Of a DNA stretch of 64,000 bases, positions 1,321-59,991 are shown piece after piece. The stretch comes from Phoenix dactylifera (Eukaryota; Streptophyta; Magnoliopsida; Arecales; Arecaceae). The position numbers and the translations under genes are program-made. Location: the NCBI RefSeq assembly GCF_009389715.1, contig NW_024067778.1, positions 434,001 to 498,000 on the forward strand, in the 5' to 3' direction. Numbering within the stretch: position 1 is the stretch's first letter; the number at the start of each line of letters is the position of its first letter. The notes under the pieces were generated by a model. The model was not told where the DNA came from and searched no databases. It was given only the letters and a program-made list of their open reading frames with translations.

Positions 1321-1522
1321 TACAGGCTGAAGAGCCGATCTTTACAGCTCTCAGCACAAATAGCTCACCCGGGTGCCTTTCAAAATTAAAAAAAAAAGGG
1401 TTTCAAAATAAAGAAGACCAAAATGCATTATAATATTTTTTTAAAAAAAAATTAAAAACAAGAGGATTAAACAAACAAAAATGAAATATTATTTGCATGT
1501 AAGACTGTAAATAAAAGGAGCA

Positions 1523-1593
1523 GCTCCCGGCGAGGATCGAACTCGCGACCTTTCGCTTACGAAGCGAACGCACTACCACTATGCTACGGAAGC
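1523..1593 (-). tRNA. tRNA-Thr (anticodon CGT)
   Basis: The minus strand folds into a full cloverleaf of 71 nt without CCA. The acceptor stem pairs GCTTCCG with CGGGAGC (one G-T pair). The D arm holds GCATAGTGGTAGTGC. The anticodon stem pairs TTCGC with GCGAA around the loop TTCGTAA, giving anticodon CGT (reads ACG, threonine). The T arm pairs GCGAG with CTCGC around TTCGATC. The internal Pol III A and B boxes are therefore intact. A run of four T on the minus strand about 6 bases past the 3' end (plus 1513-1516) can serve as Pol III terminator. No intron is seen. Confidence 0.93.
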
Positions 1594-1683
1594 ACACGCG
1601 GCGTTTTTGTCAAAAACCCATTCCAATTGTTGGTATCACCGGCGTCCGAGCGGAGAACGGGAACCCGCGCCTCCCCTTCCACA

Positions 1684-2035
1684 ATGGAGTCCCCGCCGGA
1701 GCCTCCTCCATGGCTTACGACCTCATTCAACTTATTCTCGCTATCTCCACCTGGTAATTTTCTCTCTCCTATTTTCTTCATCTACAGCTTTTTTTTGGAA
1801 AAAATAGAAATAATCTCTTTAATGCATTTAGTTTGATGTTAGTTGTGGTTCAGTGATTTCAAAAGGTTTTTCTAAGCGGTGAACTTCATGAGAAAACTGG
1901 CTTTTAGCTTGTTCTATAATATGTGGTTTATGGTGTCAGAGATGGACAGATGAAGTTACTCGGGAAGGACAAACACCCAAGCACAGCTTCAGTCGCAGGA
2001 GGCTGTCCCCAGCAAGCTCTTGCAGGTCCTTCCAC
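1684..2035 (+). other. Possible short exon pair of an unrecognised gene
   Basis: A plus-strand ATG at 1684 opens 'MESPPEPPPWLTTSFNLF' and runs to a good GT donor at about 1754. A second open block lies at about 1945-2025 before another GT. GC content is higher than in the flanks. I do not recognise the product and cannot fix the acceptor site. It could equally be the decayed start of a host gene or chance. No further exons are convincing downstream; a 70-residue lysine/arginine-rich frame at 2510-2719 is unassigned. Confidence 0.2.
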
Positions 2036-2039
2036 CTCC

Positions 2040-3889
2040 ATCTCGTTTCCTTGCTTTCTGTTAATTTCTTCAATGATTTTTAGTAATTTGCTGCTACTTT
2101 TGAGTTTTTTGTTGCCGATGAGTTCAAAATATAATTGAATTGGTCTAAGAAAAGTCAGCAAATTAAGAATTAAGCTTCAGTCTGCAGTCAAAGTCTAGGT
2201 ACTCGAATTAAAGCAGATCTGAATATTTTGAAATTTTAAGTAGCGTAACTCATTTTTGAAGAACAGAAAGATTTTATATATTCTTCTGGAGATGTACATG
2301 GATCGCCAAAGAAGTAGCGGTTCTGTTGTTGTGCAAATAATTATTTATTAATGCAAGCGTTTTATGCCCCATGGAAAGCTTCTCTCAATAGTTTCGTGCT
2401 TCTTTCTGTATCACCTTTCACTTATAACCACTGTCGCTAGATTCTGAGCTGTGGTTCGTCTTCGCTCGGTGTGCACTGACCAGTGAGAATCGAGGAGAGC
2501 TAAGGTCAGGTGAGACCTAGGAGATCACAAAAATTGGTTGCAGCTGAGGCCAACCTACAAAAAGCCTACTTGCTTGAAGGTTTTCGACGGAAGAGTAGAA
2601 TATTAGAGCAACAACGACAATCAGTGAAACCAATAAGAAGACAACTAGTGGAATGGAAACTGGAAATAATAATTAAAAAAACACACCAATTGAGATTTGA
2701 TAAAGTTAACGATAACATGTAAGCCTTCATTATAGATGGATCTATGCTAGTTGGAAGGCAAAAAGATTATCACTTGTCTGTTTAGGGTGTAAACCTAGCT
2801 TATCATCAACAACACTATTTGAAATGCTGTTACCAAGAATCTTTATCTGAGGACTGCTTGTTCCATTCCAATGTTTGGTTTAACTGCATATATAATGGAA
2901 AGAAATGAACTTTTTATTAGTTGTCCTGTAATTCCTTTCACTAGATAACGTATACTAAATATGGATTACATTAGTATACATATATAATGTTATTTAATAT
3001 TTATTACAACGCAATTACATTATTGTTAACAACTTCATCATTCCTAATAAAAATTCAGAATAAACAATTGCCAAATTCTCAATTTCTATCCAAATATTTT
3101 ATATATATAGGTCCAAAAAATAACATATATTCTAAAACTCATCAATTCAAGCATATTGAACATATTTATTTATATTAAAAAAAGATTCATCATCAGACTA
3201 ATGTATAAATATCTCGAACAGCACGTATCACAAACTAATCAAAATAATGACAATGTCCATGCAACATTCCAACAAAACAAGTTAAAGATCCCTACATTAG
3301 AATTACTGCATCTCAAATACAAGCATCTAGTAGCGCCCACATACAAGCTTCTGCTTCTCATCATCATGAATAGGAAAAAGGATACCAATTATTTCATGAT
3401 CAAAACTGAACACCCCGTACTGCTTGCTGTCTTTCAGACAGTTCCAACAACTCTTTGTTTATTTCCCATCTTTTCTTGGAAACTGCAGCATTTATCCCAA
3501 TTGCAATACTAAGTCCAGCAGTCACATATTTAATGTTGGACCCAATATTTAGCACAGGCTCTATAATATATATTCTCCCAGGGCATTGGTGCTTTTTCTT
3601 TTCTTCATTTTACCAGACCCTCCCTCGGCTTGGCATAGCAGTTGATGTTTAAGTGGCAGGAAAGATAACTTCAACATCATAGTCCAAAAAATTCATCTAA
3701 AATCTCGTTTAAGTTGTCATTACTCCCTTCCACATTCTTCATCATCTTTTCTGAAAATTATATTAATCTCTTCATTGCAAGGATGGCTTGTTCCTAAATT
3801 GAGCTACATCCTTATGACACTGCAAAACATAAAGAAGAAAATAATATTAAAATAGCTAGACAACCAGTTTTTTGCTTGTAACTGGTGCA
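2040..3889. other. AT-rich unassigned intergenic DNA
   Basis: Contains only short frames without family signatures. 2900-3200 is very AT-rich. I see no gene, RNA or clear element boundary here, though part of it may be the tail of the decayed Harbinger copy that follows. Confidence 0.4.
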
Positions 3890-5400
3890 TCCTAGACAAA
3901 CTTGTCAATGGTCACATATTTCTTGATGTTGTCCCAACCAAACTTACTTATACTTCCATGTTACATATCATGCACAATGATGAGGTCCTTTTTAAGTCTT
4001 GATTCAATATGTAGCCTTCCTAGATCCGAATCCAGAAAATTTGGTGTATCCGCATCCGTATCCATATCCGGAAGATTTTTGAATTAACTATCTATATCCG
4101 TATCTATATCCGTATCTAGATCCAACCAGACTAAAAAAATAGTAACCAAATTTGACCCAAATCGAATGTAAAAATAGTTACGGTCAGATATAATCAGACC
4201 CACTTTCAGCCCTATTTAGCTTAGATTTATTTTGTTAAAGAAGACATTCCTAACAATCAAAAAATATTTTAAATAATAACAAAAATTAAGAAATAACAAT
4301 ATCAGATCATCATCATCATCATCATCATCTTTGCCATGATAACACAAGGCACATCCAATACTAGGTAGACATCAGTAAAACCGCAATTACCATACATGCA
4401 TGAAATGCAATTATTAATGAACCAAGTTGAGAACTATAATAAAAATATAAAAGGAAATGCCATGAAAGGAAATTGTACATGTGATTCCATAAAAAAATTT
4501 ATTAGCACAGACAATTGTTCTTAGTTGTTATACGAATATTTTCAGAGATCTCAAATTAAAATAAATGCAAATAGCTTATCTTAAAAGCCATACAACTTTA
4601 TCTAGATTGTCTGCTTTCTTTCCAATTATCAAACATTATAAGTGCCAAATCATCTATCTATGCACTCCATTGATCCGATGGCTTGACAACTGTAATTGGA
4701 TCGATCACCATCAATTTTGTTGGATATTTGATTTTGCACCTTCACCTCTTCCTCCAATGGATCTTTGTTCATCTCCATTCTTGCAAAGTTATGGAGAAGA
4801 CATCATGCCATGCTGATTCGATTTTGTATCTGGATTGGGTAGAAACAAGGACTCGTTAGAATTGCCCAGCATGGCTTAAGCAGGCCAAACATCTCTCTTT
4901 CACGTTTCTAGCTACCGAATGCTTCAGTATGAAAAATCCAGCGCATTTGGTTGGTATCCTTCCCTCAATAAACTTAAATGATACTGTTGCCCTCTAAATG
5001 GTACAAGGAATCCCTCTCCATCCATGTATGTAGCATAAGATAGCAGTAAACTAAGATCAAAAATAATTTTGAGTCAGATAAAATTAAATAGTAGAACAGA
5101 AGATCCAACTCAAATTTCATGCATTAAAGACATTGTTCGCAGTCAGATCTTATCTTATGACCCTTAACTCATTTCTCCTACTTATAGTTTGCCAAAGCGC
5201 TCTGCTATCAGTAGCTGACCCCTCCCAACCTAGTAGAACATAGATGAATTGCATATCTTGCAAGAAAACTCCTAAGATGTTGGTAGCAATTTCAGTTTTC
5301 AATGTTTTTACTTAGGCTTGTCTTCTTTCGGCACCTTTAGCTTGATGTATTCTAACATAAATAAGAATTTGGCCACCTTTTTCATGTATTTAATTAATAC
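3890..5400 (-). mobile_element. Decayed PIF/Harbinger-like transposon (minus strand)
   Basis: Two blocks in the same order as in the intact element at 26.4-31.7 kb. Minus-strand 4020-3890 reads 'HIESRLKK' then 'FGWDNIKKYVTIDKF', the signature of the Myb/SANT-like partner protein (compare 'YIESRVKLLKKQYN...FGWDDINKCV' at 28.3-28.5 kb). Minus-strand 5360-4850 keeps traces of the DDE nuclease: '[21 protein letters not shown]' and, nearer 4900, the region matching 29.2-29.4 kb. Frames are broken by stops and shifts throughout and the ends are not identifiable. A run of ATC trinucleotides (about 4307-4328) lies inside. Confidence 0.65.
4000..4220. repeat. TAGGG-ended repeat with degenerate GGATATGGATA motif
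   Basis: Carries 'ATCCGTATC' type repeats at about 4020-4130 and ends in ACCCACTTTCAGCCCTA near 4215. It shares this layout with 1105-1305 and 53980-54117. The termini resemble hAT-type ends (TAGGG on the complementary strand), but the other end and a target duplication were not found. Confidence 0.4.
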
Positions 5401-5699
5401 AAAGTAGTATTGTACCTCAAATCATTTCCACCTTTCATCCATGGAGTGTGCAACAATTGGCTGAGGTAACTTGAGTAACTATCCTTGTATTCTTATGATG
5501 GCATGCTAATTAAACATTATTAAAATACATACTTACTAACTTCTCTGATCTTTGAAATTGAAATTTGGTAATCATGTTCTTAACATGATGGGCAAGGATA
5601 TGCAAAAACATAACAACTTGTTTTTCTATGCTTATATTTACTATTAATTACCTAATGGTTCTAATCATGAAACATATTTGTTGTGGTAATAAATAATCG

Positions 5700-26378: not shown

Positions 26379-26727
26379 GGGCTCGTTTGGTTCGCGGGAA
26401 GCATTTTTTTTCCTAGGAATATGATTCCTGGGAAATAGATTCCTGGGAAGAGAATGCCTGGGAAAGTACTTTTGGCATGTTTGGTTGACCATGGGAAAGT
26501 GACAGATTTCCAGAGCACTTATGTTTGGTTGACCATCCATTTTCCTAGGAAAGTTATGTGTAATTCCTATTATACCCTTAATAAAAATTAGGTTTTTAAT
26601 GCCTCTTTAATGCTGAAGGGTTTTTTTAGGGAAAAATAAAAATGCGATACTCTAGCCCCTTGACAGGTAGCTTTGCCACCATCAAATTTGGATCTAGCAC
26701 GAGTTATGATTGGTAATTACAACAAAA

Positions 26728-27331
26728 TTGCCTACATGAATACTCATATGCTGGATGAAGCATCTTCACACTTCACACTTCATCCAGCACAATGATGAGG
26801 GGAAGCGTGTGGCAGAGACTTTGATGTTCGATTATCACAGGCAGCATGGCATAGGTGAAATACTGTTTTTTACTAACTGGAACTTAATTTTCTAAGCTTT
26901 TGTGTCTGAGTTAATGGCTTCTGCTCAGTGTTATGTTTATTGTGAGTCCTAATGCTTCTCGAAAATTTCTATCTTTTGATGGATCTTCTGTAACAGAAAT
27001 TCGAATTGCTAGAATTTTTAATACATATGGACCACGGATGAACATTGATGATGGTCGTGTAGTGAGTAACTTCATAGCCCAAGCACTCCGGTAATACTTC
27101 CAAGGGCCCTTATTTTATTTTATTTTTCTATGAGAATTATAAGGACTTTTGTCTGCATTCCAACTTTCTAATTGACTCCCATCTCATCACTTTTTGTTTA
27201 TCTCGTTGTAATCTTTCTTACTTTCTTAGATTGCATGCAGAGGTGAACACTTAACAGTTCAAGCACCAGGAAGACAAACTCGAAGTGATATTAATAACTC
27301 GTTGCCTACATGAATACTCATATGCTGGATG
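26728..27331. repeat. Perfect 30-bp direct repeats bracketing the captured gene fragment
   Basis: The same 30 bases (starting TTGCCTACATGAATACTC) occur at 26728-26757 and 27302-27331, immediately left and right of the UXS-derived segment. Next to the left copy, CTGGATGAAG (26751-26760) and CTTCATCCAG (26779-26788) form an inverted pair. Confidence 0.95.
26791..27290 (+). pseudogene. UXS: UDP-glucuronate decarboxylase (UXS) gene fragment captured by the Harbinger element
   Basis: Three exon pieces with their introns are kept. 26791-26854 reads 'DEGKRVAETLMFDYHRQHG'. A GT..AG intron follows, then 26997-27090 reads 'EIRIARIF' and '[18 protein letters not shown]'. After a second GT..AG intron, 27241-27283 reads 'GEHLTVQAPGRQTRS'. 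These are consecutive stretches of UXS, the NAD-dependent SDR enzyme that makes UDP-xylose from UDP-glucuronate. Exon phases join correctly (G|AA and CG|A). The segment starts just after the position of the catalytic tyrosine of the YDEGK motif, where the codon is AAT. It has no start codon or N-terminal Rossmann half, and the match stops after 'QTRS'. Retained introns show a DNA-level copy, not a retrocopy. It lies opposite in strand to the transposon genes. It is not functional as an enzyme. Confidence 0.9.
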
Positions 27332-27604
27332 GCCTACCTAAATCATGATGATAGTGACCAATAATAATTCATGAAAAGAAGGATATTAATAACCATTGTT
27401 ATCTATTAAAGTAACCATCCAAATTCATACAAGTAAGCATCTAGCAACATACGAAACAAGAAACAACATAAAGAAAGTGCAAAACATGAACTTGTAGTTG
27501 ATCCAAAAGTAGTGTTTACATCCATTGTTATCAATAAGGCCTACACCAAAAAGCTACCCAATACATAATATCCCAAAAAGATACACAAACCCTACCCAAC
27601 TTAG

Positions 27605-28679
27605 CTACATCCCATTTTGAAACTCTGAGCAAAGAGTTAAAACATATGCCCTTCTATAGTCATCTGGAAGACTGAAAAAGTAATCAGTCTCCAGTGGGTC
27701 CATTGCAATTTTTTTGCCCACCTTAAGAATCTCAGATTGAGAAAGACCCTGCACCTTCATCACCTCAGAGACCACTGTCATTCTTCTATCTGCAGTCTCA
27801 GACTCGTGCTTAAAACATTGAGCCAATTTCTCAATATGATCTCCAGCAGCTGCCATCATGCCTACTACCTTAGTCATCTCAGATGTAAGATCTCTCACAA
27901 CCTCAAGGGCCTCATGCCTAGCTTTCTTAGTTCTGGTTGGCCTACTTGGACCTGCAACTTCAGTATGAGTAGCTGTCTGGGGAGTATTCATATTGACATT
28001 CTGACCAACAAAATTGCTATCTGCTTCTTGGCTCTCATTGATAGCTGGTGATGTGTACGGATACTGTTGCTCCTCCATCTCTATTTTTTCAACAGCATCT
28101 GCAGGTGCTTCAGCTCCCATTCCGGTAGCACGATCCCTTCCAAAGATATTAGTCAAGTCCTCAAAGTGAGGAAAAGGCTTGTTCCTCATACCTTGAGCAT
28201 TTGGGTGACTCTGCATTAAAAAAAATAAAAAAAAAGTAACACAACATGTATGAAAGGTATTCATAGAAAAAATAAACAAATTTATAATGCCAATTTACCT
28301 TAACCCATTCCTTGAAGGTATCCTCCTCACAGGTCACACACTTGTTGATGTCATCCCATCCAAATCCACTGCAGTTAGGTCCCAACATCTCTGTAATAGC
28401 ATTGTATTGTTTCTTCAAGAGCTTGACCCGAGACTCGATATATGGTGTTGCTTTCAGTCCACACCCAGGAAGCTTCTCTTCTATTAGTCTCTCCAATTGC
28501 TGCAAATATCCACTCCTAAAAGTCCCATTATCGCCCCTCCAACCTCCTCGGGTTACCAACTCAACCAATGCCTCAACAAGCTTTGCATCCTCCACATAAC
28601 CCCATTTTCTGTTGCACTTTGTTCTTTTGTTTCCTGTTGATGCTTCTCCAGCTATTGAGGTGCTCATATCTACATTCAC
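27605..28679 (-). CDS. Myb/SANT-like DNA-binding protein of the Harbinger element (328 aa, two exons)
   Basis: Exons 28679-28299 and 28210-27605 join in frame across a GT..AG intron (127 codons, then 201 codons and stop). The first exon holds the Myb/SANT-like domain found in plant PIF/Harbinger partner proteins: 'NRKWGYVEDAKLVEALVEL', 'YIESRVKLLKKQYNAITEML' and 'SGFGWDDINKCVTCEEDTF' followed by 'EWVK'. The second exon begins 'SHPNAQGMRNKPFPHFEDL', has a Ser/Thr/Glu-rich middle and a basic 'RPTRTKKARHEAL', and ends in a helical C-terminus. In the family this protein binds the subterminal DNA and is needed, with the nuclease, for transposition. The start chosen is the first ATG of the frame, with an in-frame alternative four residues on. 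No break is seen. Confidence 0.87.
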
Positions 28680-28935
28680 AATCTCATATATTATAAATAT
28701 ACATTCACAATCTACAATGTATAATAGTTATACATTCACAACCTCACGACATGATCTTACATTTGCATTATCTAAATGAATGGATACAAGGGAACTATTA
28801 AGTAAGAATTTGACATAACACAAGATTATAATATAGCAAGGAAAATATTAAACAAGGATTACAGCATAACACATAATGTTCATACAAATATTAAGAGCCC
28901 CAAATATTAAACACAACAAACATCACAATTTTTTC

Positions 28936-30371
28936 TCAAATTCTATTATGCTGCCACTCTTCAAACATTTGGGCAGCAAGATTAGCTCTGAATGCATTCC
29001 AAGATGCAGATAACTCAATATACTCAATATATGCACCCTGCTCCTGTGAAAAATTGCCATGAGAGCACTCCTCTTCATTGTACAAAGCCTCAATAGGATC
29101 TACAGACATCTCTTTTCTAATGTAGTTGTGCAGCAAACAACATACAGAAATGATCCTACACATTGTCTTAATAGGGTACCAAGTATTGCTCCTAAGGATT
29201 GCCCATCGCATCTTTAATAGGCCAAAACATCTCTCAATTACATTCCTAGCTTTTGAGTGCCTCATGTTATAGAGCTCCTCTGGTGTAGTGGGTTGATGAC
29301 CATGTCTCCACTCATTGAGGTGATATCTTTGACCTCTAAATGGAGTTAAGAAACCTTCAGAATTTGTGTACCCAGCATCGCACAGGTAGTAATAGCCTAC
29401 TCATTCAAAAACATACAAAAAAAGTGAAATCAGAAAAAATTAGGTATCCTACTCATGTAAGTAAAAAATAGCTGCAATATTAGACTTAAAATTACCTTGC
29501 GGAACTTTTAATCCATTTCTACGAGAAATGGCATCCCTAAGGACTCTATTATCATGTGCTGACCCCTCCCATCCTGGTAGCACGTAAATAAACTGCATAT
29601 CTTGTGAGTAAACGCCAAGTACATTTGTAGATATCTCATTCTTTCTCGATCGATATCTAGGTTTGTCCTTCTCCGAGACCCGCACTCTAATATGGGTACC
29701 ATCCAATGCACCTAGACAATTCTACAATGCAAGTATGAATATAATAATCAGTACTTTTAACAATTTAATAGGCCAAAATATTGCCTTTAAAAATGTGAAA
29801 TGTAATATTAACTTACCGGAAACCACATCCATTTCTCATCTGTTGATCTTTCTGTGACAGGCTCAGGATTCTTTAGCAAGTGTCTATGTAGCCTCAAGAT
29901 AGCATTCAAGACAACATTAAAATGCCTACTTACTGTCTCACCCGATCTACGAAAGTACAATTGCATAACTCTATTTTTTGAGTGATGGCCTAGGGTGTGA
30001 AGGAATATTGCAACCATCTCTTCCACTTGAACATTTCTATTCCCTTCCAATTTGCTAATCGATTTAAGCATTTCACAAAGCTTCCAAAATGCCCTCCTAT
30101 CCATTCTAAGTTGATCAATACAAATTTGATCACTCTCCATTATCATAAGCCTAAGATTAGCTATTCTATTCATCACCCTCTTATCAAGTGTTCTATCAAA
30201 AACATACACCATTTCTCTAGGAATTCTAACATTTACTTGTGCTAACGTTTCAAGAATCTTGGCCATCATTGACATTATCATCAACATCATCTCTGTGTAT
30301 ATTACCAAAATGGTACTTGCCATCTTCTTCTTTTTAGAAACAAATAAACGAGCCATAACTGCATTAAGCAA
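28936..30371 (-). CDS. PIF/Harbinger DDE transposase (about 413 aa, three exons)
   Basis: Exons 30371-29817, 29721-29496 and 29396-28936 join in frame through GT..AG introns (185, 75.3 and 153.7 codons). The first exon carries the N-terminal helix-turn-helix region ('[20 protein letters not shown]', '[19 protein letters not shown]', '[20 protein letters not shown]'). Across the first junction it reads '[17 protein letters not shown]', with the first catalytic Asp. Exon two has '[18 protein letters not shown]', with the second Asp. Exon three has '[10 protein letters not shown]' and '[18 protein letters not shown]', with the Glu. This is the DDE superfamily-4 (plant PIF) arrangement and a normal length. 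It cuts the element at its inverted repeats, usually at TWA-like targets. All key residues are present and no stop or shift was seen, so it is a candidate for an active transposase. The start is the first ATG of the open frame. Confidence 0.9.
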
Positions 30372-30379
30372 GCAAAAAG

Positions 30380-31727
30380 TATTACAACAAATAATTAAAT
30401 TATCTATAAATATGTTGGTTCTGATCGATCAAAATAAAGGAATGCATAGACCAAAAAAGTTTCCTTTACGCTAAAGGAAGGGCCCATGATACTGATTAAA
30501 TAACTGAGATTGTTTACAATGTCAAGCAAGAGCAGAATAGGAAAAGGTAATCCCATGGCACTTTATGGTCCCATCCCACCATCCCCTTCAAGTGAATACC
30601 CAAGCGGCAACTGCAACATCACAGCACAGCAGCCATTCAATCTCCAAACTCTCTCCTTTTCTCTCTCTACCAGCCAAGAGGGGAGAAGAGACCGAGAAGA
30701 GAAAATTAAAAGAATCTCCACCCTCCAAGAAGTCCATCTCCAATCCCCCTATCTTTCTTCCTGATGGCCCAGCTGGATCAGGAGTAAGGTGAGGGAAGGA
30801 AAACCAAGACCAGAACCAAAAAAGAGAAGGGATGAAAGATAAGAGTGGCTTCAGACGTGTATCAAGCCAACCAAAGAACTCCTCTCTCTTTCTCTCCACC
30901 CAAAACAGAACTACTGTCTCCAACTTCCCAAGGACTCTATTAAGGCCAGGAAACTCTCCACGTCCCTTCCCTCAAGAGGGAAGACTCGTAGCCAGTTCCT
31001 GTTCCCTTTTTATATGGGGCATGGCAAGAAACCCTCTCGGCCTTTGCTTCGTTTTGGTCATGGTTAGACAAAAAACAGGGCAAGAAACCCTCCCAGAACC
31101 CCCCAAAACGAGAAAGAAAATCCCTACGACCATAAACCAGGAATTCCACAAAACAAAAGGAGAGGAAATCTTTATCAACCTACGACCATAAATCTGCAGA
31201 ATACTCCGAAATCGGGAGGAAAACATCGAATTGGAGAGATGAAACCCGACTATCATGAAAAACAGATTGCAGGAAAAAAAAAGTTGAAAGGAAATTATGC
31301 TTACCTCTTTGGATTCGAGAGGAGAATGGTAGAACTCGAATTCTTCCCAAGATTTTCGTCGGAGCTAACACCCACGAGATCGAGAGAGTGAAGTGAGAAA
31401 GAGGAAGATGAGCGGGCTTTTACGATGGAGGAGGGTTTGAGGAGAGAGATCGCGATGGTCGGTCGTAGCTTTCCCACGGAAGGGGCTTTTACGATGAGAG
31501 GCTTTTTGGAGAACAAAAAAATATTTTGATTCCTGCCACACGGGAAAGTTGCTTTCCCATGTTCCCCATGGGAAAGCCTTTCCCATAAAACATGGGAATT
31601 ACATTCCCCCGGGAAAAGAACTTTCCCATCTCTCTCCTTTGAAAACTCCAACCAAACAAGAGCCATTTTATTACTTTCCCATTGACCATACTTTTCCCCC
31701 TTCTTTTCCCGCGAACCAAACGAGCCC
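30380..31727 (-). promoter_or_regulatory. 5' non-coding part of the Harbinger element
   Basis: From the transposase start to the right end the minus strand has no convincing coding block. 30600-30780 is rich in CT/TCC on the plus strand. The last ~230 bases (31500-31727) share GGGAAAG/CTTTCCC-rich sequence with the MITEs at 57.5-58.4 kb. Promoter and transposase binding sites should lie here, but none was pinned down. Confidence 0.4.
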
Positions 31728-33395: not shown

Positions 33396-33960
33396 CACTA
33401 CCAGAAAATACGCGTATAGTGACGGAGATTCCCGTCACTATACCGTGTTTCCGGTTACTAATATGGAATTTGTGACCGGAGCTCCCGTCACTGACTTCGT
33501 TACAAAAACACGCGTCGCTAAATTCTCCGTGACGGCGGCGATTCCCGTCACTAACCTCCGTGACAGAACCGCCGTCACTAAGCCGTTACAAATTCAAGAA
33601 TTAAATATTTAAGAAATTATGTATTTCCCGTCACTATCCAGTTGCGGAGTTAGTGACGAAGGCAACTTGGTCACTGATTTTGTCACAGAATGCGGTCACA
33701 AGTTTGGTCACTAATCTGTCACGACCTTTAGTGACAGATTTAGTCGTCACAGACATGGTCACACATTTTGTCACTACATTTGTCATTAATCCCGTCACTG
33801 ACCTAGTGATAAGTTTACGGTCACTAATTGGTTACAAACGCGCTGAGCAAAATCAATTTTTATTGACCAAAATCCTGTCACTAAGTTTATGACTGCTCGT
33901 CACGATAGTTGGTAAATAATTTAGTAACCAAAATTTGGTCATCGATCACAATCTAATAAC
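33396..33960. repeat. Left terminal and subterminal repeats of the CACTA element
   Basis: The terminal inverted repeat is followed by some two dozen GTCACTA-type words in both orientations, spaced about 15-30 bases. The matching right-hand cluster is at 45540-45785. Confidence 0.88.
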
Positions 33961-34165
33961 CTGGTACATTTGGTACATTGATTGGCACATAATAATAATA
34001 ACAATAATATCATTAATAGCAAAGGCATTCAACATTACGCAAAAGTCATTTTAAATGTCATTCAAAATTGGCATCAACATGTCCTGAATCTATCAAAATC
34101 AAAGTCTAAAAATATGTCATAAAGATCAACAGAGATTTCATTCCTCCTAGGAATGCAAAGACCTA

Positions 34166-37100
34166 TCATCTAAGGCAAAAACAATTATAATGAAGCATGA
34201 TCAGCAGAACCAGAATCACCATTACTCCCCGATCTGCATACTTTGGTCCAAAGCCAATCTCTTCTCTCATCTTTTGAAGAACCTCCTCTTGCCATTTTTT
34301 CTTTTCCTGCTCAAGAATACGTAGAAGGTCTTCATGAGTGTACAGCTCTGGAGCTTGACTTGTAGAGGTGGAAGCAGATGATGATTGCCCAATAATTCCA
34401 GTGAGATCCTCTAGGGGACTAAAGCCATAGACATGGCCATGAGTTGGGACACCAGTTGTGTCACGCCCCGAGCCCGAGGCGCGGCAGACGCCGCACGCCC
34501 GCACGGCGGGCCGCGCAGGCGTGCAAGGCAACGGATTACATCAAAGCAGATACAGATGTTCAAAATTGACATAATTATTTAAATTGTTCAAAAGCAGTCT
34601 TACAAAATTTCAGAATAACATATGCCAATATAATTCAAATGTCCAAACTAAACTAACTAAAATGCCAATAACTGAAGAATCATCGGAAACTCTAACGCAC
34701 TCCCCAATCCCGTGCGATCAAGCCTCTGGATCTGAAAAATGGAGAAAAACAGAATAATGAGCTACACTAGCCCAGTAAGCAACAAAATATCCCAGAGTGG
34801 GGTCAGAGCATATCAGATCAAAATACAGGATAATAAGATAAATCATAAATAACATTGTTTTACTATTTTCAAAACTTATTATCATTTTTCCAAAAACTCT
34901 GATACCAGAATCTCAACATAATAGGCTACGGCCACGTAACCCAGTGGCATGGGTTGCACAAGGTGCCAAACACCACTATTATTAAGCACCGGTGGTACGG
35001 TGTCCAAATACCACTATTCTAATCACCGGTGGTACGGTGTCGAAATCGGTTCCTCACAGATTACAAGTCGACAGGTCCAACGTATAATCCCCATTGGCGG
35101 GGCCAGAACTGAACAGAACAGATCATAGCCATGCTGAGAATGCATATATATATATATAAAAATATATTTCAGAAATTGTCCAATTATATTTCATGGATTT
35201 CAGAGCATATAACATGATTTTCAAATAAAATTTAACATGTCTGACCCATTTTACTGAATGCAAAACATATATCAAAACATAATCAGTTTATTAAATAATT
35301 TAGAAATCACACTTGAAGTATTAAGTTACTTACATCTTCTCGCTTGATTCCTACTTCAGGTAGACGGATCAGGTTCACCTGTTTAAAGTTTAATTAATTT
35401 CTTGTTAATTTCAGACTAAGCAAAATTCAAAAATAATACTATTGGACATGGCCCAACAGAGCCCAAAGTTGGCCCATAATGGGCACGGCCTGATAGGGCC
35501 CATATCGGACTCGGCCCAATGGGCCCGCATAGACTCGGCTAAATAGGGCCCCCAAGGTTGGCTTCTAATTTGTTCATTTATACAATAAGATTTATTGCAG
35601 GGACTAATACTTAATTACAGGGTACCATTCTATAATAAAACTTGAGTGAGGGGACTAAATAAATATAGTTGGGGGCCTTTATGTAATAAATCTTTCCTAT
35701 AGGGATCAAATACAAATTACAGGAGTCCCTATTTCTGAAATAGCATACTGCCAAGGGCTTAACTGCAAAAAAATCTGTTTATTGGTCAAATGGGTTTGGG
35801 TTTCGGATCTCGGGTTTCGGGTTCGGGTTCCAGTTCAGGTTCAGGTTCAGGTTTGGGTTCGGGTTCGGATTCTCGGGTTTGATCTGGATCCAAGTTGGGC
35901 CCATGGGGGTATTGCCCAACTGGGCCCAACCGGACTGGACTGGGCCCAACCGGACTGCAGTGGACTGGGCCCAACGGCCCAGTTTGGCCCGTGATGGGCC
36001 TCCTCCTTCCCCAAACTCCCCCCCACGAACAGGGGGAGAAGAAGAGACGGAGGAGAGAGGGAGGTGGCCGGCGGGGGTGACCAGCTTGGGTGGCCGGGGG
36101 CCACCCCTCGATCGACTGCTAGCCAGCCGCCATGGCGGCCGGCGGCGTTGCAGGGACCGACGGGGAGGAGAAGCAACCGAGATGATGATCTCGGCTGCTT
36201 GGGCTGAAACAGAGGAGAGGAGGATCTCGACGGAGGAGGGCTTACCGGCGGTCGACGGAGGTGGCAAATCCCGGCCGAGGGAGGCTCGGTCCGGCGTCAA
36301 GCGACGGCGGCGATGTTTGAAGCCGAGGGGTTGGATCTCGGAGCAGGGGAAGCTCGCGGAGGGGATCCGGGCGGCGCTCGGTCGGGAAGACACATCGATC
36401 GGAGAGGAGGAGGAGGGAAGGAGGAAAGAGAAGGAGGAAGAGGGCTCGGTTTGCCCTAGGGAGGAGGATTTGGGGGGTTTTATCACCCCCTCGTGATGGC
36501 TCTCCGCCGCGAAGATTGCGGCGGCCGAGCGAGATCCGCGGCCGCGGTTCGGCCGCGGATGAGCTGGAGGGGGGGTGCCGCGGGACTAGCGACATCCCCG
36601 CCCTGATCATCCCCGGAAGAGCCGGAGAGGATCGCAAATCGCGATCCTCTGTTCCGGCCTTCCAAAAAGAGAACGGGACTGAAGTCGGCAAGGCCTGCCG
36701 ACTTCAGCCCGTGTCTCACATTCTCTCCCCCTTAGAAAAATTTCGTCCTCGAAATTTAACATACCTTAGCTTGCAAAAAGGTCCGGATATTTTTCCTTCA
36801 TCTTGTCCTCCAGCTCCCACGTGGCTTCACGTTCTGAGTGATTGCTCCACTGGATCTTAACATAAGGAATCGTGTGCCTCCTCAACACTTGCTCTTTTCT
36901 ATCAACCACACGTACAGGCTGCTCAGGATATGTCAAATCTTCTCTAAGCTGCAAAGGAGCCACTTCTACCACATGGCTCATATCTGGAATATACTTTCTT
37001 AACATAGAAACATGAAAAACGTTGTGGACTCCAGACAGTGAAGGTGGGAGTGTCAATTTGTATGCCACAGCTCCTACTCTTTCCAGAATCTCAAAGGGGC

Positions 37101-40100
37101 CCACATAGCGTGGACTGAGTTTTCCACGTATTCCAAATCGCATCACTCCTTTAACTGATCAAATAAGTCATCAATTCTTGGTAGAGGATACTTGTTCTTT
37201 ATTGTTACTTTATTTATCTCTCGATAATCAATACATAATCTCATACTACCATCCTTCTTCTTTACAAATAAGACTGGGGCTCCCCAAGGTGAAACACTAG
37301 GTCTGATGAAACCCTTATCAAGAAGATCCTGCAACTGCTCCTTTAATTCTTTCATTTCAACTGGAGCCATTCTATAGGGGGTCTTAGAGATTGGTGTGGT
37401 ACCAGGAATCAAATCAATTGCAAAATCAATTTCTCTATCTGGTGGCAAGCTAGGGAGGTCTTCCGGAAAGACATCGGGGTATTCATTTACTACTGGGATA
37501 TCTTCAAATCTTTGATCTGACTGTCTAGTGTCAACCACTGTGGCAATATATGCCATACTCCCCTTTCTAAGTAGTCGCTTAATTTGCATAGCAGAAATAA
37601 TTCGAGGGGAGGTATATGCACCACTGCCGATGAAGCTGAATTCAGTATCTCGAGGGATCTAAAATTTTATCCGCTTTTCATGACAGTTAATGGTAGCAAA
37701 GTGTGATGCTAAGTAGCCCATACCGAGAATTATGCCAAAGTCATGCGTATCTATAACTATCAAATCAGCAGGCAAGTCTTTACCTACTATCTGAACCGGA
37801 CAAGTCTTGCAGACCTGATTACCCATCATCCCACTTCCAGCAGGGGTGTTAACATGCAAATCATACTCTAACAGCATGCAAGGTAGATCATGTTTTCGCA
37901 CAAATATCGATGACATAATGAATGTGCAGCACCAGTATCAAATAGTATATAAGCATAAACAGAAGCAACCGGTAGTGTGCTGATCCCTCAAAGGATAATG
38001 ACTAACCTTAGAGTCAAATTATTATGTTGCTAAGAATATGATTCACAAAATAAACATGTACTGATAATCATTAGATAGCAACGATTTATCTCAAAAATGA
38101 TTTGTATCAAACCGCAAAAGTAGGTCTAAGAAGGCAAAGTATTGATACCATGATTCAATATGCCAGCCTTTAACTTAAACTTATAAATCATAAGATGAGA
38201 GCAAATAATGCATGGTTTATTCAAATATTTAACAAATTAGACCATATTTGGTCATCAATCAACTAACCCGAGTCATGATACGTTCAAATTATCATTATTA
38301 TTATTATTTTCTTAGCATACCCAAAAATAGCAAAGTCTATCCAAGAAATAACATAATCATATCAGGATTGACCTGAGAATCAATAGTGTTCACCTTCCCT
38401 TATTAACAAAATCTTTCATTATTGAATAAAATAGTCTTTCATCATAACATGTTACCAAAACACAGTCAATATTTTTGACCAGTTTAAATTTACTCAGTTC
38501 ATCAAATTTCTGCTGCACAACTCAGATCAATATTTTCCTTCTATATACGAGCTCCATGCATGATCCACATACAGATTTCAATGAATATTTTCTAGTCCAA
38601 GCTTTAAACATCTTTTTATAGATGAATCTTAAATTGCTACCAAAATAATTAACTTCAACTAGAAGCAATATTCACAGTGCCTGATATCAAGTTAAACTTT
38701 CCAAATAATTACATTGCACGATAATAACTCATGATTAATATTCCTTCACTTAATTTAGTCAAAATCTAATTAATCATAACTTGAAATACAAGTTGCTCTA
38801 CCAAGAAAACTCTTAGAGTAGCTCATTCACACTTTGGTTACGACCATAATTAGGTTGCAGTCTAATTTTAGCATTTCAAAATTATGATAAAATAACTCAA
38901 ATTTATCAATAACAAAAGCAAATAAATGCCTTCATCAAATGGCCTAATGTCTACCCATCTCTCAAACTTTCTGACGAATCCTAAAGATCCTAAAACTTAA
39001 GCTCCATCTGACTATTTCAAATACAATCCCTAGGAATCTGAAACCTAAGCTCTGATACCACCAAATCTGTCACGCCCCGAGCCCGAGGCGCGGCAGATGC
39101 CGCACGCCCGCACGGCGGGCCGCGCAGGCGTGCAAGGCAACGGATTACATCAAAGCAGATACAGATGTTCAAAATTGACATAATTATTTAAATTGTTCAA
39201 AAGCAGTCTTACAAAATTTCAGAATAACATATGCCAATATAATTCAAATATCCAAACTAAACTAACTAAAATGCCAATAACTGAAGAATCATCGGAAACT
39301 CTAACGCACTCCCCAATCCCGTCCCCGAGCCCGAGGCGCGGCAGACGCCGCACGCCCGCACGGCGGGCCGCGCAGGCGTGCAAGGCAACGGATTACATCA
39401 AAGCAGATACAGATGTTCAAAATTGACATAATTATTTAAATTGTTCAAAAGCAGTCTTACAAAATTTCAGAATAACATATGCCAATATAATTCAAATATC
39501 CAAACTAAACTAACTAAAATGCCAATAACTGAAGAATCATCGGAAACTCTAACGCACTCCCCAATCCCGTGCGATCAAGCCTCTGGATCTGAAAAATGGA
39601 GAAAAACATAATAATGAGCTACACTAGCCCAGTAAGCAACAAAATATCCCAGAGTGGGGTCAGAGCATATCAGATCAAAATACAGGATAATAAGATAAAT
39701 CATAAATAACATTGTTTTACTATTTTCAAAACTTATTATCATTTTTCCAAAAACTCTGATACCAGAATCTCAACATAATAGGCTACGGCCACGTAACCCA
39801 GTGGCATGGGTTGCACAAGGTGCCAAACACCACTATTATTAAGCACCGGTGGTACGGTATCCAAATACCACTATTCTAATCACCGGTGGTACGGTGTCGA
39901 AACCGGTTCCTCACAGATTACAAGTCGACAGGTCCAACGTATAATCCCCATTGGCGGGGCCAGAACTGAACAGAACAGATCATAGCCATGCTGAGAATGC
40001 ATATATATATATATAAAAATATATTTCAGAAATTGTCCAATTATATTTCATGGATTTCAGAGCATATAACATGATTTTCAAATAAAATTTAACATGTCTG

Positions 40101-42939
40101 ACCCATTTTACTGAATGCAAAACATATATCAAAACATAATCAGTTTATTAAATAATTTAGAAATCACACTTGAAGTATTAAGTTACTTACATCTTCTCGC
40201 TTGATTCCTACTTCAGGTAGACGGATCAGGTTCACCTGTTTAAAGTTTAATTAATTTCTTGTTAATTTCAGACTAAGCAAAATTCAAAAATAATACTATT
40301 GGACATGGCCCAACAGAGCCCAAAGTTGGCCCATAATGGGCACGGCCTGATAGGGCCCATATCGGACTCGGCCCAATGGGCCCGCATAGACTCGGCTAAA
40401 TAGGGCCCCCAAGGTTGGCTTCTAATTTGTTCATTTATACAATAAGATTTATTGCAGGGACTAATACTTAATTACAGGGTACTATTCTATAATAAAACTT
40501 GAGTGAGGGGACTAAATAAATATAGTTGGGGGCCTTTATGTAATAAATCTTTCCTATAGGGATCAAATACAAATTACAGGAGTCCCTATTTCTGAAATAG
40601 CATACTGCCAAGGGCTTAACTGCAAAAAAATCTGTTTATTGGTCAAATGGGTTTGGGTTTCGGATCCTGGGTTTCGGGTTCGGGTTCCAGTTCAGGTTCA
40701 GGTTCAGGTTTGGGTTCGGGTTCGGATTCTCGGGTTTGATCTGGATCCAAGTTGGGCCCATGGGGGTATTGCCCAACTGGGCCCAACCGGACTGGACTGG
40801 GCCCAAGTTGGGCCTGCAGTGGACTGGGCCCAACGGCCCAGTTTGGCCCGTGATGGGCCTCCTCCTTCCCCAAACTCCCCCCCACGAACAGGGGGAGAAG
40901 AAGAGACGGAGGAGAGAGGGAGGTGGCCGGCGGGGGTGACCAGCTTGGGTGGCCGGGGGCCACCCCTCGATCGACTGCTAGCCAGCCGCCATGGCGGCCG
41001 GCGGCGTTGCAGGGACCGACGGGGAGGAGAAGCAACCGAGATGATGATCTCGGCTGCTTGGGCTGAAACAGAGGAGAGGAGGATCTCGACGGAGGAGGGC
41101 TTACCGGCGGTCGACGGAGGTGGCAAATCCCGGCCGAGGGAGGCTCGGTCCGGCGTCAAGCGACGGCGGCGATGTTTGAAGCCGAGGGGTTGGATCTCGG
41201 AGCAGGGGAAGCTCGCGGAGGGGATCCGGGCGGCGCTCGGTCGGGAAGACACATCGATCGGAGAGGAGGAGGAGGGAAGGAGGAAAGAGAAGGAGGAAGA
41301 GGGCTCGGTTTGCCCTAGGGAGGAGGATTTGGGGGGTTTTATCACCCCCTCGTGATGGCTCTCCGCCGCGAAGATTGCGGCGGCCGAGCGAGATCCGCGG
41401 CCGCGGTTCGGCCGCGGATGAGCTGGAGGGGGGGTGCCGCGGGACTAGCGACATCCCCGCCCTGATCATCCCCGGAAGAGCCGGAGAGGATCGCAAATCG
41501 CGATCCTCTGTTCCGGCCTTCCAAAAAGAGAACGGGACTGAAGTCGGCAAGGCCTGCCGACTTCAGCCCGTGTCTCACAAGTTGCCTCAAACCACAAGTC
41601 ATAATCACGTGGAGGAGCATCTGAGGTGGAGGCATCACCATATTTTTTGGAGTATTCAGCTGAATACTTTGCCTGCCAGTTGATTTAAAAGAAGAGAAAA
41701 ACATTATGGTGGATCAAACAAGAGATAAACATGAGCAAGCTCAATAATATTTATGAATCATAAAAAAATTATACTTTCCATGACAGCTTCACTTCTCTTA
41801 TCTACATATCCTCCCATGCCTTGCTTTGTCTTATGCGTCCGATTAAAAGATTCAACTATTGTTGGCTCCCTGCCTAACTTTAATTTCTACAAAAGAGAAA
41901 AGAAAAAATTCATTAACATATAATGGGCTAATTTAAGATGACTGAACAATAATATAAAAATTATTATAGAAATCTAATTGAATAAAGATATGTACCAATC
42001 GTTCGTCATGATTGACAAATGTGATTGATCCTCCACAGTGTTTAGAGATGCTACCGTTCTTCATGGTGTTTCTATTATTTTTGTTGGCTTCTGATTTCTT
42101 CTTCCATTTTGGGGAGATCCAAATATCAATTAACTTATTCCAATTTTCTCTAGAGATCCAATTAGGGGGTTTATCACGGGCTTTGTTTAAATCTCCTTTT
42201 GCTTCCAGAAGCTTTTGGCTTCTGACCTTCCCTAATGAGGTTGTCAATCGTCGCTGACAATGCTTGTTCCAAACTTCATGTACATGATGCAATTGTCCTG
42301 GAAGAATTGTGTGTATCTCCTAACAATATATAGATCGCAAGTAATCAGACTTACTATTTGTTAAGGGCAAAAGTTAATGATAAGAAATATAAATTAATTA
42401 CATCACCTCAAATTTGTTCCACATTCCAACTTTAGCATGTGTAGGGACCTCCCTCCATGACAACCACGGACCATTAAAAAATTGGCGCATGATAGCAACA
42501 GCTTTGTGACTGACCTCATAATCAAAAAACCTGCAATTTAAAAAATATTCATTAGAAAATAAATTAAATACTTTAAATGCAACAAACACATAAATTCAAA
42601 TTAGTGATATAAGAAAGTGATATTTTCATACATTCCTCTTTTGCACCTAACAATCACTTTTCCATTTGCATCAACAGGGGCTTTAAGGGTTGGTTCTGGG
42701 CCATTGCTCTGTCTTGGATCAATTCCAAGTTCATCATTCATCTGATCCTCATTCATTGTATCCTCATGATTTTGCACTGCACCATTCATTTCTTCATCAT
42801 TTATTTCTTCATTTGCATCCAACTCTTCAATCATGTCCCCATCAGGAATGTAATCATCATCATCATGACATTCCTCGACACGCTCAGGCAACCTAGGAGG
42901 TTGAGGAGGAACTTGAGTAGCAGTCAGGTACTTCTGCAT
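34166..42939 (-). CDS. TnpA-like CACTA gene (Transposase_24 type), split by an LTR element
   Basis: A multi-exon minus-strand gene. It has an acidic N-terminal stretch (42939-42630, '[19 protein letters not shown]' to 'VIVRCKRG'), then about 42532-42408 ('[14 protein letters not shown]' and '[18 protein letters not shown]'), about 42320-42000 ('[19 protein letters not shown]', '[17 protein letters not shown]'), about 41890-41780 ('[20 protein letters not shown]', '[10 protein letters not shown]') and about 41690-41580 ('[15 protein letters not shown]' to 'YDLWFEAT'). After the LTR insertion it resumes at 34453 with '[17 protein letters not shown]' and ends in a Glu/Lys-rich helix '[16 protein letters not shown]'. 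This is the plant Transposase_24 family, CACTA accessory proteins thought to bind subterminal repeats. The frame is continuous across the insertion point if one target-site copy is discounted. Confidence 0.75.
34459..36720 (-). repeat. 3' LTR of the Tekay-type element (2262 bp)
   Basis: Begins TGTCACGCCCCGAGCCCGAG on the plus strand and ends GTGTCTCACA. It contains a GGTTCGGGTTCAGGTT simple repeat (about 35800-35880) and a very GC-rich half. Long frames here arise from GC bias and simple repeats. The long LTR fits the Tekay/Del lineage. Confidence 0.93.
36721..39067 (-). mobile_element. Interior of the Tekay-type element (pol parts)
   Basis: Recognisable minus-strand parts within about 37920-36760 are a retropepsin-like block ('[19 protein letters not shown]'), the start of reverse transcriptase ('[16 protein letters not shown]', '[19 protein letters not shown]', '[18 protein letters not shown]') and an integrase C-terminus with chromodomain-like end ('[16 protein letters not shown]', '[14 protein letters not shown]'-type). 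The rest (37920-39048) is AT-rich without coding signal. The purine tract at 36721-36735 and the tRNA-Met primer site at 39049-39060 bound it. Confidence 0.85.
39068..41579 (-). repeat. 5' LTR of the Tekay-type element (2512 bp, with a terminal tandem duplication)
   Basis: Same sequence as the other LTR, plus a second copy of its first ~250 bases (39068-39322 repeated from about 39323), which accounts for the 250-bp length difference. The repeat begins inside the GC-rich 'CCCCGAGCCCGAGGCGCGGC' block. Confidence 0.92.
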
Positions 42940-43417
42940 CTTTCAACAAAGAATAAAAATCTGCAGCATCCTTGTTTGGCTCTTCCTCATGATTAACTTC
43001 AAATGCACTTCTCAAATGAAGTTTCTCTTCTGGACCCATAGCTTCCATCACCATGGTTCTATATTGCTGACCATGTTCACAACCAACATCCATTGATGTG
43101 GATGCTTCTACTGCACTTGTACTTATAGGAGCAACTGCACCAAGTAACTCCCCATGTGCAAACCATGTTGAATATCTCGGTGTAAACCCCTTTCTCAACA
43201 GATGAACATTGACCGTATCACGGTTAAGAAATTTCTGGTTGTCACATCTTATACAAGGGCATCTAATCTTATCACCACTACAATACTCTAACTGAGTAAA
43301 TGCAAACTCAAGGAACCCTTTAACTCCATCACAGAACTCAGCTCTTATATAACCATTTTCACTAAGTCGGTGGTACATCCAATTACGATCAACTGACATA
43401 GTTCCTCTAAAAATCAA
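42893..43417 (-). pseudogene. TnpD N-terminal piece (Transpos_assoc domain) of the CACTA element
   Basis: Starts at an ATG at 43417 and reads 'SVDRNWMYHRLSENGYIR', 'EFCDGVKGFLEFAFTQLEY', 'KIRCPCIRCDNQKFLNRDTV' and 'HLLRKGFTPRYSTWFAHGE'. This is the transposase-associated zinc-binding domain that opens plant CACTA TnpD proteins. It continues to '[10 protein letters not shown]', where TnpD would normally proceed to the DDE core. Here the reading moves straight into the acidic start of the TnpA-like gene. The catalytic core is therefore absent, and the two genes appear fused by an internal deletion. The domain itself looks intact. Confidence 0.8.
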
Positions 43418-43439
43418 AAAAATAAAACAACATAAGAAA

Positions 43440-44260
43440 GCCTAGAAAATATTAGAGAGATGATAAAAAAAGAAAACAACATAAGAAAAACCGAACCATT
43501 AAAAACACGAAAGGCAAGATCGTAAAAAATGTAAAAGAAACAAAAACTGGTATGATATTTATGAAGATGAGAAGTTATCATAAGCATGACAAAAATAAGT
43601 CATTCAATCTTGTCCCAGCATCATTGACATTAAGAAGGCATTCAATCTTTACAAAAAGCTGAACATAAGGAATTAACCTTTACAAGTTATCTGTTCATTC
43701 ATCTAATACCAGCAATATTCAAAAAGCATTTAATCTTTACAAAGACAAGGAATACAAGTCAAATCATCCAAATTTACATATGGAATACTATCTGCTTCAC
43801 ATAGAACAAATGTGAATATACATGATCGCCTCTGATGCTAGGAAAGCATGGTACTTCTTAGCAAGCTTTTTGACCAGCTTCTTGATTGCACACTGGAAAT
43901 AACTCACAACCATGAAGCAACACCACTTTCCACCACTTTCCATTATTCCTTGCAGATGAACAATGATTGTAAAAATGAATAACATGACGAAAAAATTAAA
44001 ATCCATGAACTTTACATAATCCCAACCCATCAACCCTCAAAATTACAACAATAATCAGTGAAGCAGTCTAAATATATGCAAACCATTGGTAGGACTAACA
44101 AATGTGTCAGAATAAAAATGCATAATATTAAGGAGCTCCTCAAGTACAACATTATTTTTGTCTATTTTAGCAACAGTAAATTCGACACAGTGCTACCCAA
44201 CCAAGTGATGTGTCCAAGTATCATAATAAAAGCAGCTACTCAGATATATCAAAGTTTCTT
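43440..44260. other. CACTA 5' non-coding region, AT-rich
   Basis: Upstream of the TnpD ATG. It contains several short direct repeats of 'CATTCAATCTTTACAAA' type (about 43630-43745). No other gene seen. Confidence 0.45.
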
Positions 44261-44599
44261 TCGTCTATTTTAGCAAAAAAAAAAAAAATCCCTCCTCTCT
44301 TTCTCTGTCTCCCGTCTCCACCCAAAACAAAACCACTGTCCCCACTCCCCACTCTCCCACTGTTCCGAGCTGTCTCGCTGCCCCACCACCTCTCTCTCTC
44401 TCTCTTTCTCTCTCCGGGCTTGGGCAAAATCTACCGGGATCGAGCTTGAAGAGGAGGAGGAGGAGGAGAAAACTCTTACCGGTGACTGTGAGTCGGTGAC
44501 CGGAGCCGCGGAGGTTGCCGTCCGGGGGAGAAGGACGCGAAGAGCCGCCGGCCGGTCGTTGAAGAGGCGACGACACCGAGAGGAGGCGGCTATCAGGCT

Positions 44600-45010
44600 C
44601 TCAGCGAGGGAAAAGGGGGGGCGGCGGCGGCGGCTCTCAGCGAGGGAGGGGGGCCGGCGGCGGCGGCTCTCAGCGAGGGAGGGGAGGCAGCGGCGGCTCT
44701 CAGCGAGGGAGGGGGGGTGCGGCGGCGGCTCTCAGCGAGGGGGTGCGGCGACGGCTCTCAGCGAGGGAGGGCGGCGACGGCTCTCAGCGAGGGAGGGGGG
44801 CCGGCGGCGGCGGCTCTCAGCGAGGGAGGGGAGGCAGCGGCGGCTCTCAGCGAGGGAGGGGGGGTGCGGCGGCGGCTCTCAGCGAGGGGGTGCGGCGACG
44901 GCTCTCAGCGAGGGAGGGCGGCGACGGCTCTCAGCGAGGGAGGGGGGCGAGGGAGTGGGGGGGGGGCGGCGGCTGCTCTCAGCGAGGGACGGGAAGGGAA
45001 GGGAAGGGAA
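44600..45010. repeat. GC-rich minisatellite with 147-bp higher-order repeat
   Basis: About thirteen copies of CTCTCAGCGAGGG are separated by G-rich GGCGGCGGCGG spacers. A block of five to six units (44641-44787) is followed by an almost or fully identical copy (44788-44934), so the array has a 147-bp period on top of the ~25-30-bp one. It lies between the CACTA right end and the first gene, probably in the promoter or leader. The G-runs could form quadruplexes. Confidence 0.9.
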
Positions 45011-45539
45011 AGGTTAGGGTTTTGGTATTTAAGTCGGTTTGCAAGCCAAATTGTATATAGGCTGATTTGGGCTAAATCGTGATTTGGGCTAAATCGGTTT
45101 GCAAGCCAAATTTCATATCAAATTTTTTTTTATTTATAAGGCTGATTGGATGGGACTTGCAAGGCAAAAATATTTTTAAACTATAAAGTATGGTAAAAAA
45201 ATTCTATAAAGCAGGAAACTTGCAATAGGGGTGCAAATGGGTCATGGCCGACACCATGAGATTTTAAAATGAGAAGAAGAAATTTGAGTTTTATAGAGAG
45301 CGATTGGAATTTGGATTATCGAAGAAATTTGGGCGGAACGGCGGGCACACTTAGTTTCATTTTGGATATTCCTCCTTTTATTTTTTCTTTTAATTTAGGT
45401 TTACTCAAAAATAATATTTTTAATATTTTTGGAATTAAAAATTAAATTTGGTGACAGAAATTTTTGTCAATAATCTGTTACTGCCAAAAATAATCTTTTA
45501 AAAATTTATAAATACTAGGATTACTATATTTGTGACGGC

Positions 45540-45785
45540 TGCATTTGTCACTGTCTGGTTGCAATTTTGGTTATCATATTGCTGACAGATACCCCGTCAC
45601 TATGATGGTCACTAAGGTTTGGCGCCCATCCTACCCGCGCATTCTGTGACCGGTCTGTCACTAAACGGTCACTAAGTTTACACCACGGTGACCAAATTTC
45701 TGTCGGTCACTAATCCGTCACAAATAGTAACTGATAACGGTCCGTCACTAATTTCCCGTCACTATACGCGTGTTTTCTGGTAGTG
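45540..45785. repeat. Right subterminal and terminal repeats of the CACTA element
   Basis: Cluster of GTCACTA/TAGTGAC words ending in the terminal inverted repeat TTTTCTGGTAGTG. Confidence 0.88.

Positions 45786-46460: not shown

Positions 46461-59991
<13,531 letters not shown>

Follow-up and report, generated by a model that had tools for sequence, protein, structure and literature searches.

A fragment of a UXS gene, with both of its introns, lies inside a PIF/Harbinger transposon and is framed by two identical copies of a 30-bp sequence. The best explanation is a staggered break within the element, whose ends were filled and then joined through template-switched copies, the UXS stretch being one of them. 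We give this reading a probability of about 0.65. Capture at the DNA level is favored because the repeat is exact and maximal, the introns are retained, the edges of the fragment fall in mid-exon, the terminal motif of the family occurs only at the ends of the element, and filler is present at the junctions. The analysis covers one stretch of 64,000 nucleotides, called here the window.

The carrier presents the features of the PIF/Harbinger superfamily: a transposase with a DDE_Tnp_4 domain, a second gene of the Myb/SANT-like type, and short terminal inverted repeats. It consists of the following parts:

26379-31727, no strand assigned, PIF/Harbinger element, 5,349 bp end to end, with 22/22 inverted termini and A-run flanks
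26379-26400, forward strand, left terminal inverted repeat
31706-31727, reverse strand, right terminal inverted repeat
27605-28667, reverse strand, Myb/SANT-like gene model with 2 exons (28667-28299, 28210-27605), 324 aa, open
28936-30356, reverse strand, transposase gene model with 3 exons (30356-29817, 29721-29496, 29396-28936), 408 aa, open

The termini, GGGCTCGTTTGGTTCGCGGGAA, are identical at 22 of 22 bases in inverted orientation. The family was labelled by GGGCTCGTTTGGTTCGCG. The flanks are AAAAA on one side and AAAA on the other. An AAA target duplication fits them, and it is indistinguishable from the A run. In grapevine, the PIF target site duplication consists of 3 bp, mostly TAA or TTA (PMC2528002). 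The spliced transposase model spans DDE_Tnp_4 in full (profile positions 1-158 of 158, E 1.1e-32). Likewise, the Myb/SANT-like model is above the cut-off of Myb_DNA-bind_3 (E 1e-7). The three introns of the two models have GT-AG ends. Both models were predicted from sequence, and we chose their start codons. Since both are open, the element looks able to code. The open models and the identical termini suggest, as far as sequence can tell, that this copy was able to move. The initial annotation had described the element as otherwise intact.

The insert is delimited by the two copies of the repeat:

26728-26757, forward strand, left copy of the 30-bp direct repeat
27302-27331, forward strand, right copy of the 30-bp direct repeat

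The copies agree at 30 of 30 bases, and the identity extends by not even one base on either side. The perfect repeat reported initially is thus confirmed as a maximal one. Between the copies stands an insert of 544 bp (26758-27301). Insert and repeats lie between the left end of the element and the stop of the Myb-like gene, that is, beyond the 3' end of this gene. A search of the window on either strand, allowing up to 10 mismatches, gave no other site for the 30-mer. Compared with the window, the insert matched only itself. The 30 identical bases bound the divergence loosely, with a 95% upper limit of about 9.5%.

The 30-mer starts with TTGCCTAC, and GCCTAC follows the right copy at 27332-27337. 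A 6-base direct repeat therefore stands at both ends of the putative single 30-mer. This short repeat may have directed the break, or the way in which the ends were re-joined.

A Helitron or a nested element with terminal inverted repeats was also considered as carrier, and rejected on the repeats listed, the terminal motif and the length of the direct repeat. Among the repeats of at least 16 bp listed (20 of 29 direct families and 25 of 48 inverted pairs), only the 30-mer lies at the edges of the insert. The terminal motif of the family also speaks against a nested carrier of this type. With up to 3 mismatches, the 18-base terminus has 7 sites in the window, where 0.03 are expected by chance. 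Two of them are the ends of the element, and within 26379-31727 the motif is confined to these ends. To our knowledge, no DNA transposon of plants makes a target duplication as long as 30 bp.

The captured fragment is composed of these pieces:

26791-26854, forward strand, first UXS exon piece, interrupted at the codon for Tyr in YDEGK, with clear homology from 26792
26855-26996, forward strand, UXS intron 1, GT...AG, 142 bp
26997-27090, forward strand, UXS exon piece 2, a whole exon provided that the splice model is correct
27091-27240, forward strand, UXS intron 2, GT...AG, 150 bp
27241-27286, forward strand, UXS exon piece 3, cut after ...QTRS

The three exon pieces and two introns claimed at first are all found at 26791-27286, with GT-AG introns and an open frame of 68 aa. 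The fragment is on the forward strand, opposite to the genes of the transposon. Once spliced, its frame shows neither stop nor shift. Among solved structures, the peptide is closest to UDP-glucuronate decarboxylase 1 (2b69, E 1.4e-25, with residues 2-67 in the alignment), which we take to be the human protein. The peptide is above the Pfam Epimerase cut-off. NCBIfam gave four weak matches to related nucleotide-sugar enzymes, far under the curated cut-offs. This is expected for such a short piece.

Conservation was studied in the best 80 of 118 relatives found in the viral_contigs collection. Two gapped rows were dropped, and 78 ungapped relatives were left. At position 1 all of them (78/78) have tyrosine, and the window has the codon AAT (Asn). 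The preceding residue is cysteine in 77 of the 78 and histidine in the window. After the R-S pair, phenylalanine is present in 74 relatives out of 78, and the window has aspartate. With the conserved Tyr, Cys and Phe all missing at the edges, the UXS homology stops inside exons on both sides. Within the piece, only two residues depart from the 80% consensus: Q60 (Tyr in 66/78) and A61 (Gly in 78/78). Plant UXS proteins presumably have Q-A-P or similar at positions 60-61. If so, these two residues may be normal for plants, and the relatives used in the comparison come from viral-class contigs. UXS-like genes are common on contigs of this class, which are viral by the classification of the IMG/VR database. 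The 118 relatives belong to this set, and the best 80 of 118 (loci L001-L080) are up to 73% identical to the piece.

The retention of both introns means that the copy was made from DNA, with no RNA intermediate. A processed retrocopy was discarded for this reason, and no poly(A) is present at 27287-27301. A working gene or enzyme was also discarded. The piece is truncated on both sides, has 68 residues and presents an Asn codon in place of the conserved tyrosine, to which we assign a catalytic role by assumption. Within the best explanation, these 68 codons without the tyrosine are dead cargo. The intact frame fits a young capture or a conserved source gene, and gives no date.

The absence of decay bears on another question, namely when the fragment entered the family. 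The UXS piece could be old cargo, captured by an ancestor copy and brought here by transposition. Such a history is a matter of timing and can go together with the repair mechanism. Some captures of the Pifvine-3 family of grapevine are common to several copies (PMC2528002), and the open models and identical termini of the present element suggest a mobile copy. Against this, the window holds no second carrier. Moreover, neither the repeats nor the UXS frame show decay, although 30 bp bound the divergence only loosely (about 9.5%). We regard an old cargo as unlikely.

Between the repeats and the UXS piece there are short stretches of filler:

26758-26790, forward strand, left filler: AAG-CAT, a 7-bp stutter, then CTTCATCCAGCA
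27287-27301, forward strand, right filler GATATTAATAACTCG, with two overlapping local matches
27382-27393, forward strand, likely 12-bp template of the right filler, identical to 27287-27298
26699-26707, reverse strand, possible second template of the right filler, 9 bp, identical to 27294-27302

At the left junction, the stutter reads CTTCACA CTTCACA CTTCA (26764-26782), and its third CTTCA is the start of CTTCATCCAGCA. This last sequence (26778-26789) is the reverse complement of 26749-26760 at 12 of 12 bases, which are the end of the left repeat and the three bases that follow it. The initial annotation had noticed a small inverted repeat at this boundary. It is present, but its arms are 12 bp long at 26749-26760 and 26778-26789, and not those given before (26751-26760 with 26779-26788). 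The resulting hairpin has an energy of -13.3 kcal/mol as DNA (z -6.85) and beats 200 of 200 shuffles.

The left filler has 9 bases complementary to the end of the repeat. This is equalled by 26 of 20,000 random 32-mers, an uncorrected value for a match that was found by looking. Against all DNA within about 500 bp, the longest match of the left filler is also 9 bp, and 305 of 2000 shuffles do as well or better. A 9-base match is therefore ordinary at that scale, and it is the position of the hairpin that argues for the left filler. For the bases AAG-CAT and for the switch points into UXS, the search identified no template.

The right filler shows a clearer origin. Its 12-bp template lies 50 bp past the right repeat, on the same strand. 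The match is equalled by 3 of 2000 dinucleotide shuffles of the flanks, and by 72 of 18,739 random 15-mers from the window (uncorrected). The last bases of the filler, with the first T of the repeat, form ATAACTCGT. It recurs on the opposite strand at 26699-26707, a site 20 bp ahead of the left repeat. For the 100 bp left of the repeat, a match of at least 9 bp occurs in 139 of 20,000 random 16-mers (uncorrected). The two matches overlap by ATAAC (5 bp), so all 15 bases of the right filler can be read as two short local copies.

The chance tests were picked after the matches were noticed, and the individual odds, about 0.1-0.7%, are uncorrected. The individual matches are modest. Taken together, they are consistent with template switching during the repair of a staggered break. 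The right filler is good evidence of templated synthesis, and the left filler is suggestive of it. The insert is then composed of the local 12-bp and 9-bp copies, the hairpin copy and the UXS piece, with the left filler only partly explained.

The junctions also bear on two other accounts of the repeat. The first invokes ectopic homologous recombination: the element would have received UXS from a DNA circle, or from a donor with the same 30-mer on its flanks. A recombination model was proposed for transposed genes of Arabidopsis, where the flanking repeats exceed 30 bp in 9 of 25 cases with a known parent (PMC2869330). For the present insert this origin is very improbable. It needs a 30-mer already placed beside the donor UXS fragment, it leaves the hairpin and the local filler unexplained, and the 30-mer has no other occurrence in the window. 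In the second account, the assembly made a false join through the shared 30-mer. The length of the repeat is suggestive, as 30 equals k-1 for k = 31. But a false join would create neither the hairpin nor filler that matches DNA near the break. Such an artefact seems extremely improbable to us.

The preferred course of events, a staggered break repaired with template switching, would have begun in untranslated DNA, at a point flanked by the left end of the element and the Myb-like gene. There, two nicks on opposite strands, probably some 30 bp apart, would have produced a double-strand break. The stagger of 30 nt is deduced from the length of the repeat alone. Fill-in of both single-stranded tails would have given the 30-bp direct repeat. 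Before joining, one end may have been extended in a fold-back on itself, which would leave the hairpin and the 7-bp stutter. Next, about 495 bp of a genomic UXS gene would have been copied, introns included. Copying would then have returned to the element, taking short stretches located no more than about 60 bp from the repeats, before the other end was finally joined. We infer the staggered break, a theta-like polymerase, the order of the steps and the cause of the break. The initial annotation had proposed filler DNA at a staggered break, or template switching. This proposal is supported in part: it stands as the best reading, and the local filler at the junctions adds to its support. The single-copy empty state that goes with it, one 30-mer followed directly by GCCTACCTAAATC, is something that we only infer.

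Previous works describe similar products. In rice, insertions of 10-1000 bp present duplications, ectopic donors and copies drawn from several places within 200 bp, and they were ascribed to asymmetric nicks (review PMC7407515). The same review reports that end joining primed by a hairpin leaves inverted or direct repeat motifs. Templated fillers mark polymerase theta in Arabidopsis (PMC10923293). In human and mouse cells, filling at breaks with complementary 3' tails leads to tandem duplications (PMC8355091).

The same scar can be approached from the excision of the element. In a gap repair of this kind, copying from the sister chromatid would be interrupted, both nascent strands would have copied the same 30 bp, and one of them would have strayed to UXS and returned. 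This course would leave the same repeat, the same fillers and the internal position, and the element has an open transposase model. In rice, the excision of DNA transposons often adds fillers (58 of 94 putative excisions, 1-123 bp), although these sit at excision sites and not within elements (PMC4423477). Gap filling with template switching is the favored origin of the single-copy Pack-TIRs of animals, though it is independent of transposition there (PMC8277862). However, strands that share 30 complementary bases are expected to anneal, not to be joined through 544 bp of filler. In addition, the window holds nothing that links the break to an excision. We consider gap repair improbable, and retain the staggered break.

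Compared with known systems, the closest is Pifvine-3, a PIF family of grapevine reported in 2008, which has exon and intron captures and copies that code for transposase (PMC2528002). The present element resembles it as a PIF with coding copies and with host exons and introns between its ends. In some cases, the captures of Pifvine-3 are shared by several copies, apparently without stopping transposition, and its target duplications are of 3 bp (PMC2528002). The differences are in the extra DNA. In Pifvine-3 the extra stretch reaches up to 3.5 kb and lies in the 5' region, and the excerpts of PMC2528002 describe no repair scar. By contrast, the present insert, of 544 bp, is placed past the 3' end of the Myb-like gene and shows a readable scar.

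Pack-PIF elements were reported in maize in 2022 (PMC8903248). Like them, and like the Pack-TYPE elements of maize and rice, the present case has PIF termini that enclose host exons. Pack-TYPE elements are non-autonomous, and their proposed origin is the fusion of neighbouring insertions (PMC8903248). Unlike them, the present element keeps both genes and has the terminal motif only at its two ends. As the transposase is kept (an open model), it is not a strict Pack-TYPE element, though host coding DNA is present between its termini. The initial annotation suggested that capture in a coding PIF/Harbinger element is seldom documented. This suggestion is weak, given Pifvine-3 (PMC2528002) and the Pack-PIF elements of maize (PMC8903248).

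Outside this superfamily, the rice break-repair insertions (Vaughn and Bennetzen 2014, via review PMC7407515) share with our case the size of 10-1000 bp, the ectopic donor and the copies from several places within 200 bp, and presumably also the duplication. Unlike those insertions as reviewed, the present one lies inside a DNA transposon, and its donor is a recognisable gene with introns. The single-copy Pack-TIRs of animals are also similar, with template-switched host sequence in an element with terminal inverted repeats and breakpoints skewed to the interior (PMC8277862). In the excerpts of PMC8277862, their junctions are classified by microhomology, in place of the 30-bp repeat and hairpin filler seen here. 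Finally, transposed genes of Arabidopsis present flanking direct repeats, which in at least one figure example are single in the orthologous site of a relative (PMC2869330).

The process is known, and the present case adds a well-preserved example of it. Its scar is unusually readable, and the type of event was already known. The capture of genes by transposons with terminal inverted repeats is still debated between the fusion of insertions (PMC8903248) and gap filling with template switches (PMC8277862). For one event, a scar with a putative duplication, a hairpin, local filler and a gene fragment that bears introns could discriminate between these models, given its genome. A further reading is tentative, and we hold it as a doubtful possibility. 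The insert would be a base-by-base record of capture by a transposon that codes for its transposase, is still mobile and has spread the UXS fragment, perhaps with RNA antisense to the genes of the transposon. One staggered break would then have recorded fold-back synthesis, the jump to a distant gene and the return through two overlapping local templates.

The window presents other members of the superfamily. The Harbinger family of the element also has two miniature relatives here, one nested in the other, an outer one at 57467-58432 and an inner one at 57767-58248, with TAT on both sides of the inner one. Between their arms and the ends of the element at 26379-31727, identity is 80-89%, so that they appear to derive from such an element by internal deletion. 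The alignment of the miniatures at 57467-58432 to the element covers the right end of the latter and, of the left arm, no more than the initial 236-266 bp. As this alignment stops short of the 30-mer, it says nothing on the empty state.

A decayed and more distant Harbinger lies at about 3901-5680 in the same orientation. It shows transposase pieces with 40-56% identity, stops and a Myb-like piece, and its divergence is too high for it to inform on the empty state. The joined flanks of the insert scored 65 against 1500-4100, and the maximum in 100 mononucleotide shuffles was 51. This match was rejected as an empty relative, because one other of 21 real stretches of 2.6 kb scored 63 and the strand is opposite to the one expected from gene order. 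At 3972-3985, inside the Myb-like remnant of the decayed element, 14 bp match the left edge of the UXS fragment (GCACAATGATGAGG). This match is probably due to chance.

Searches in wider collections gave 0 matches in viral_contigs for the 20-mer of the terminal inverted repeat, for a 24-base stretch of the 30-bp direct repeat and for the transposase. The 22-mer of the terminal inverted repeat gave 0 in genome_contigs, and the whole element had no match among plasmids. These zeros mean little, since what was searched is viral, prokaryotic or plasmid DNA. They are expected for DNA of a plant, the origin suggested by the types of element and by a UXS gene that has introns.

At 33396-45785, the termini CACTACCAGAAAA and TTTTCTGGTAGTG, with TGA on both sides, delimit an element of the CACTA type, about 12.4 kb long. 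Inside it, four short rows of tandem repeats occur twice (34962-35872 and 39823-40729), at a spacing of about 4.86 kb. This doubling points to the duplication of a large internal segment, or else to another element with paired repeats. Near them, at 39075-39570, a 248-bp unit is repeated twice with 99% identity.
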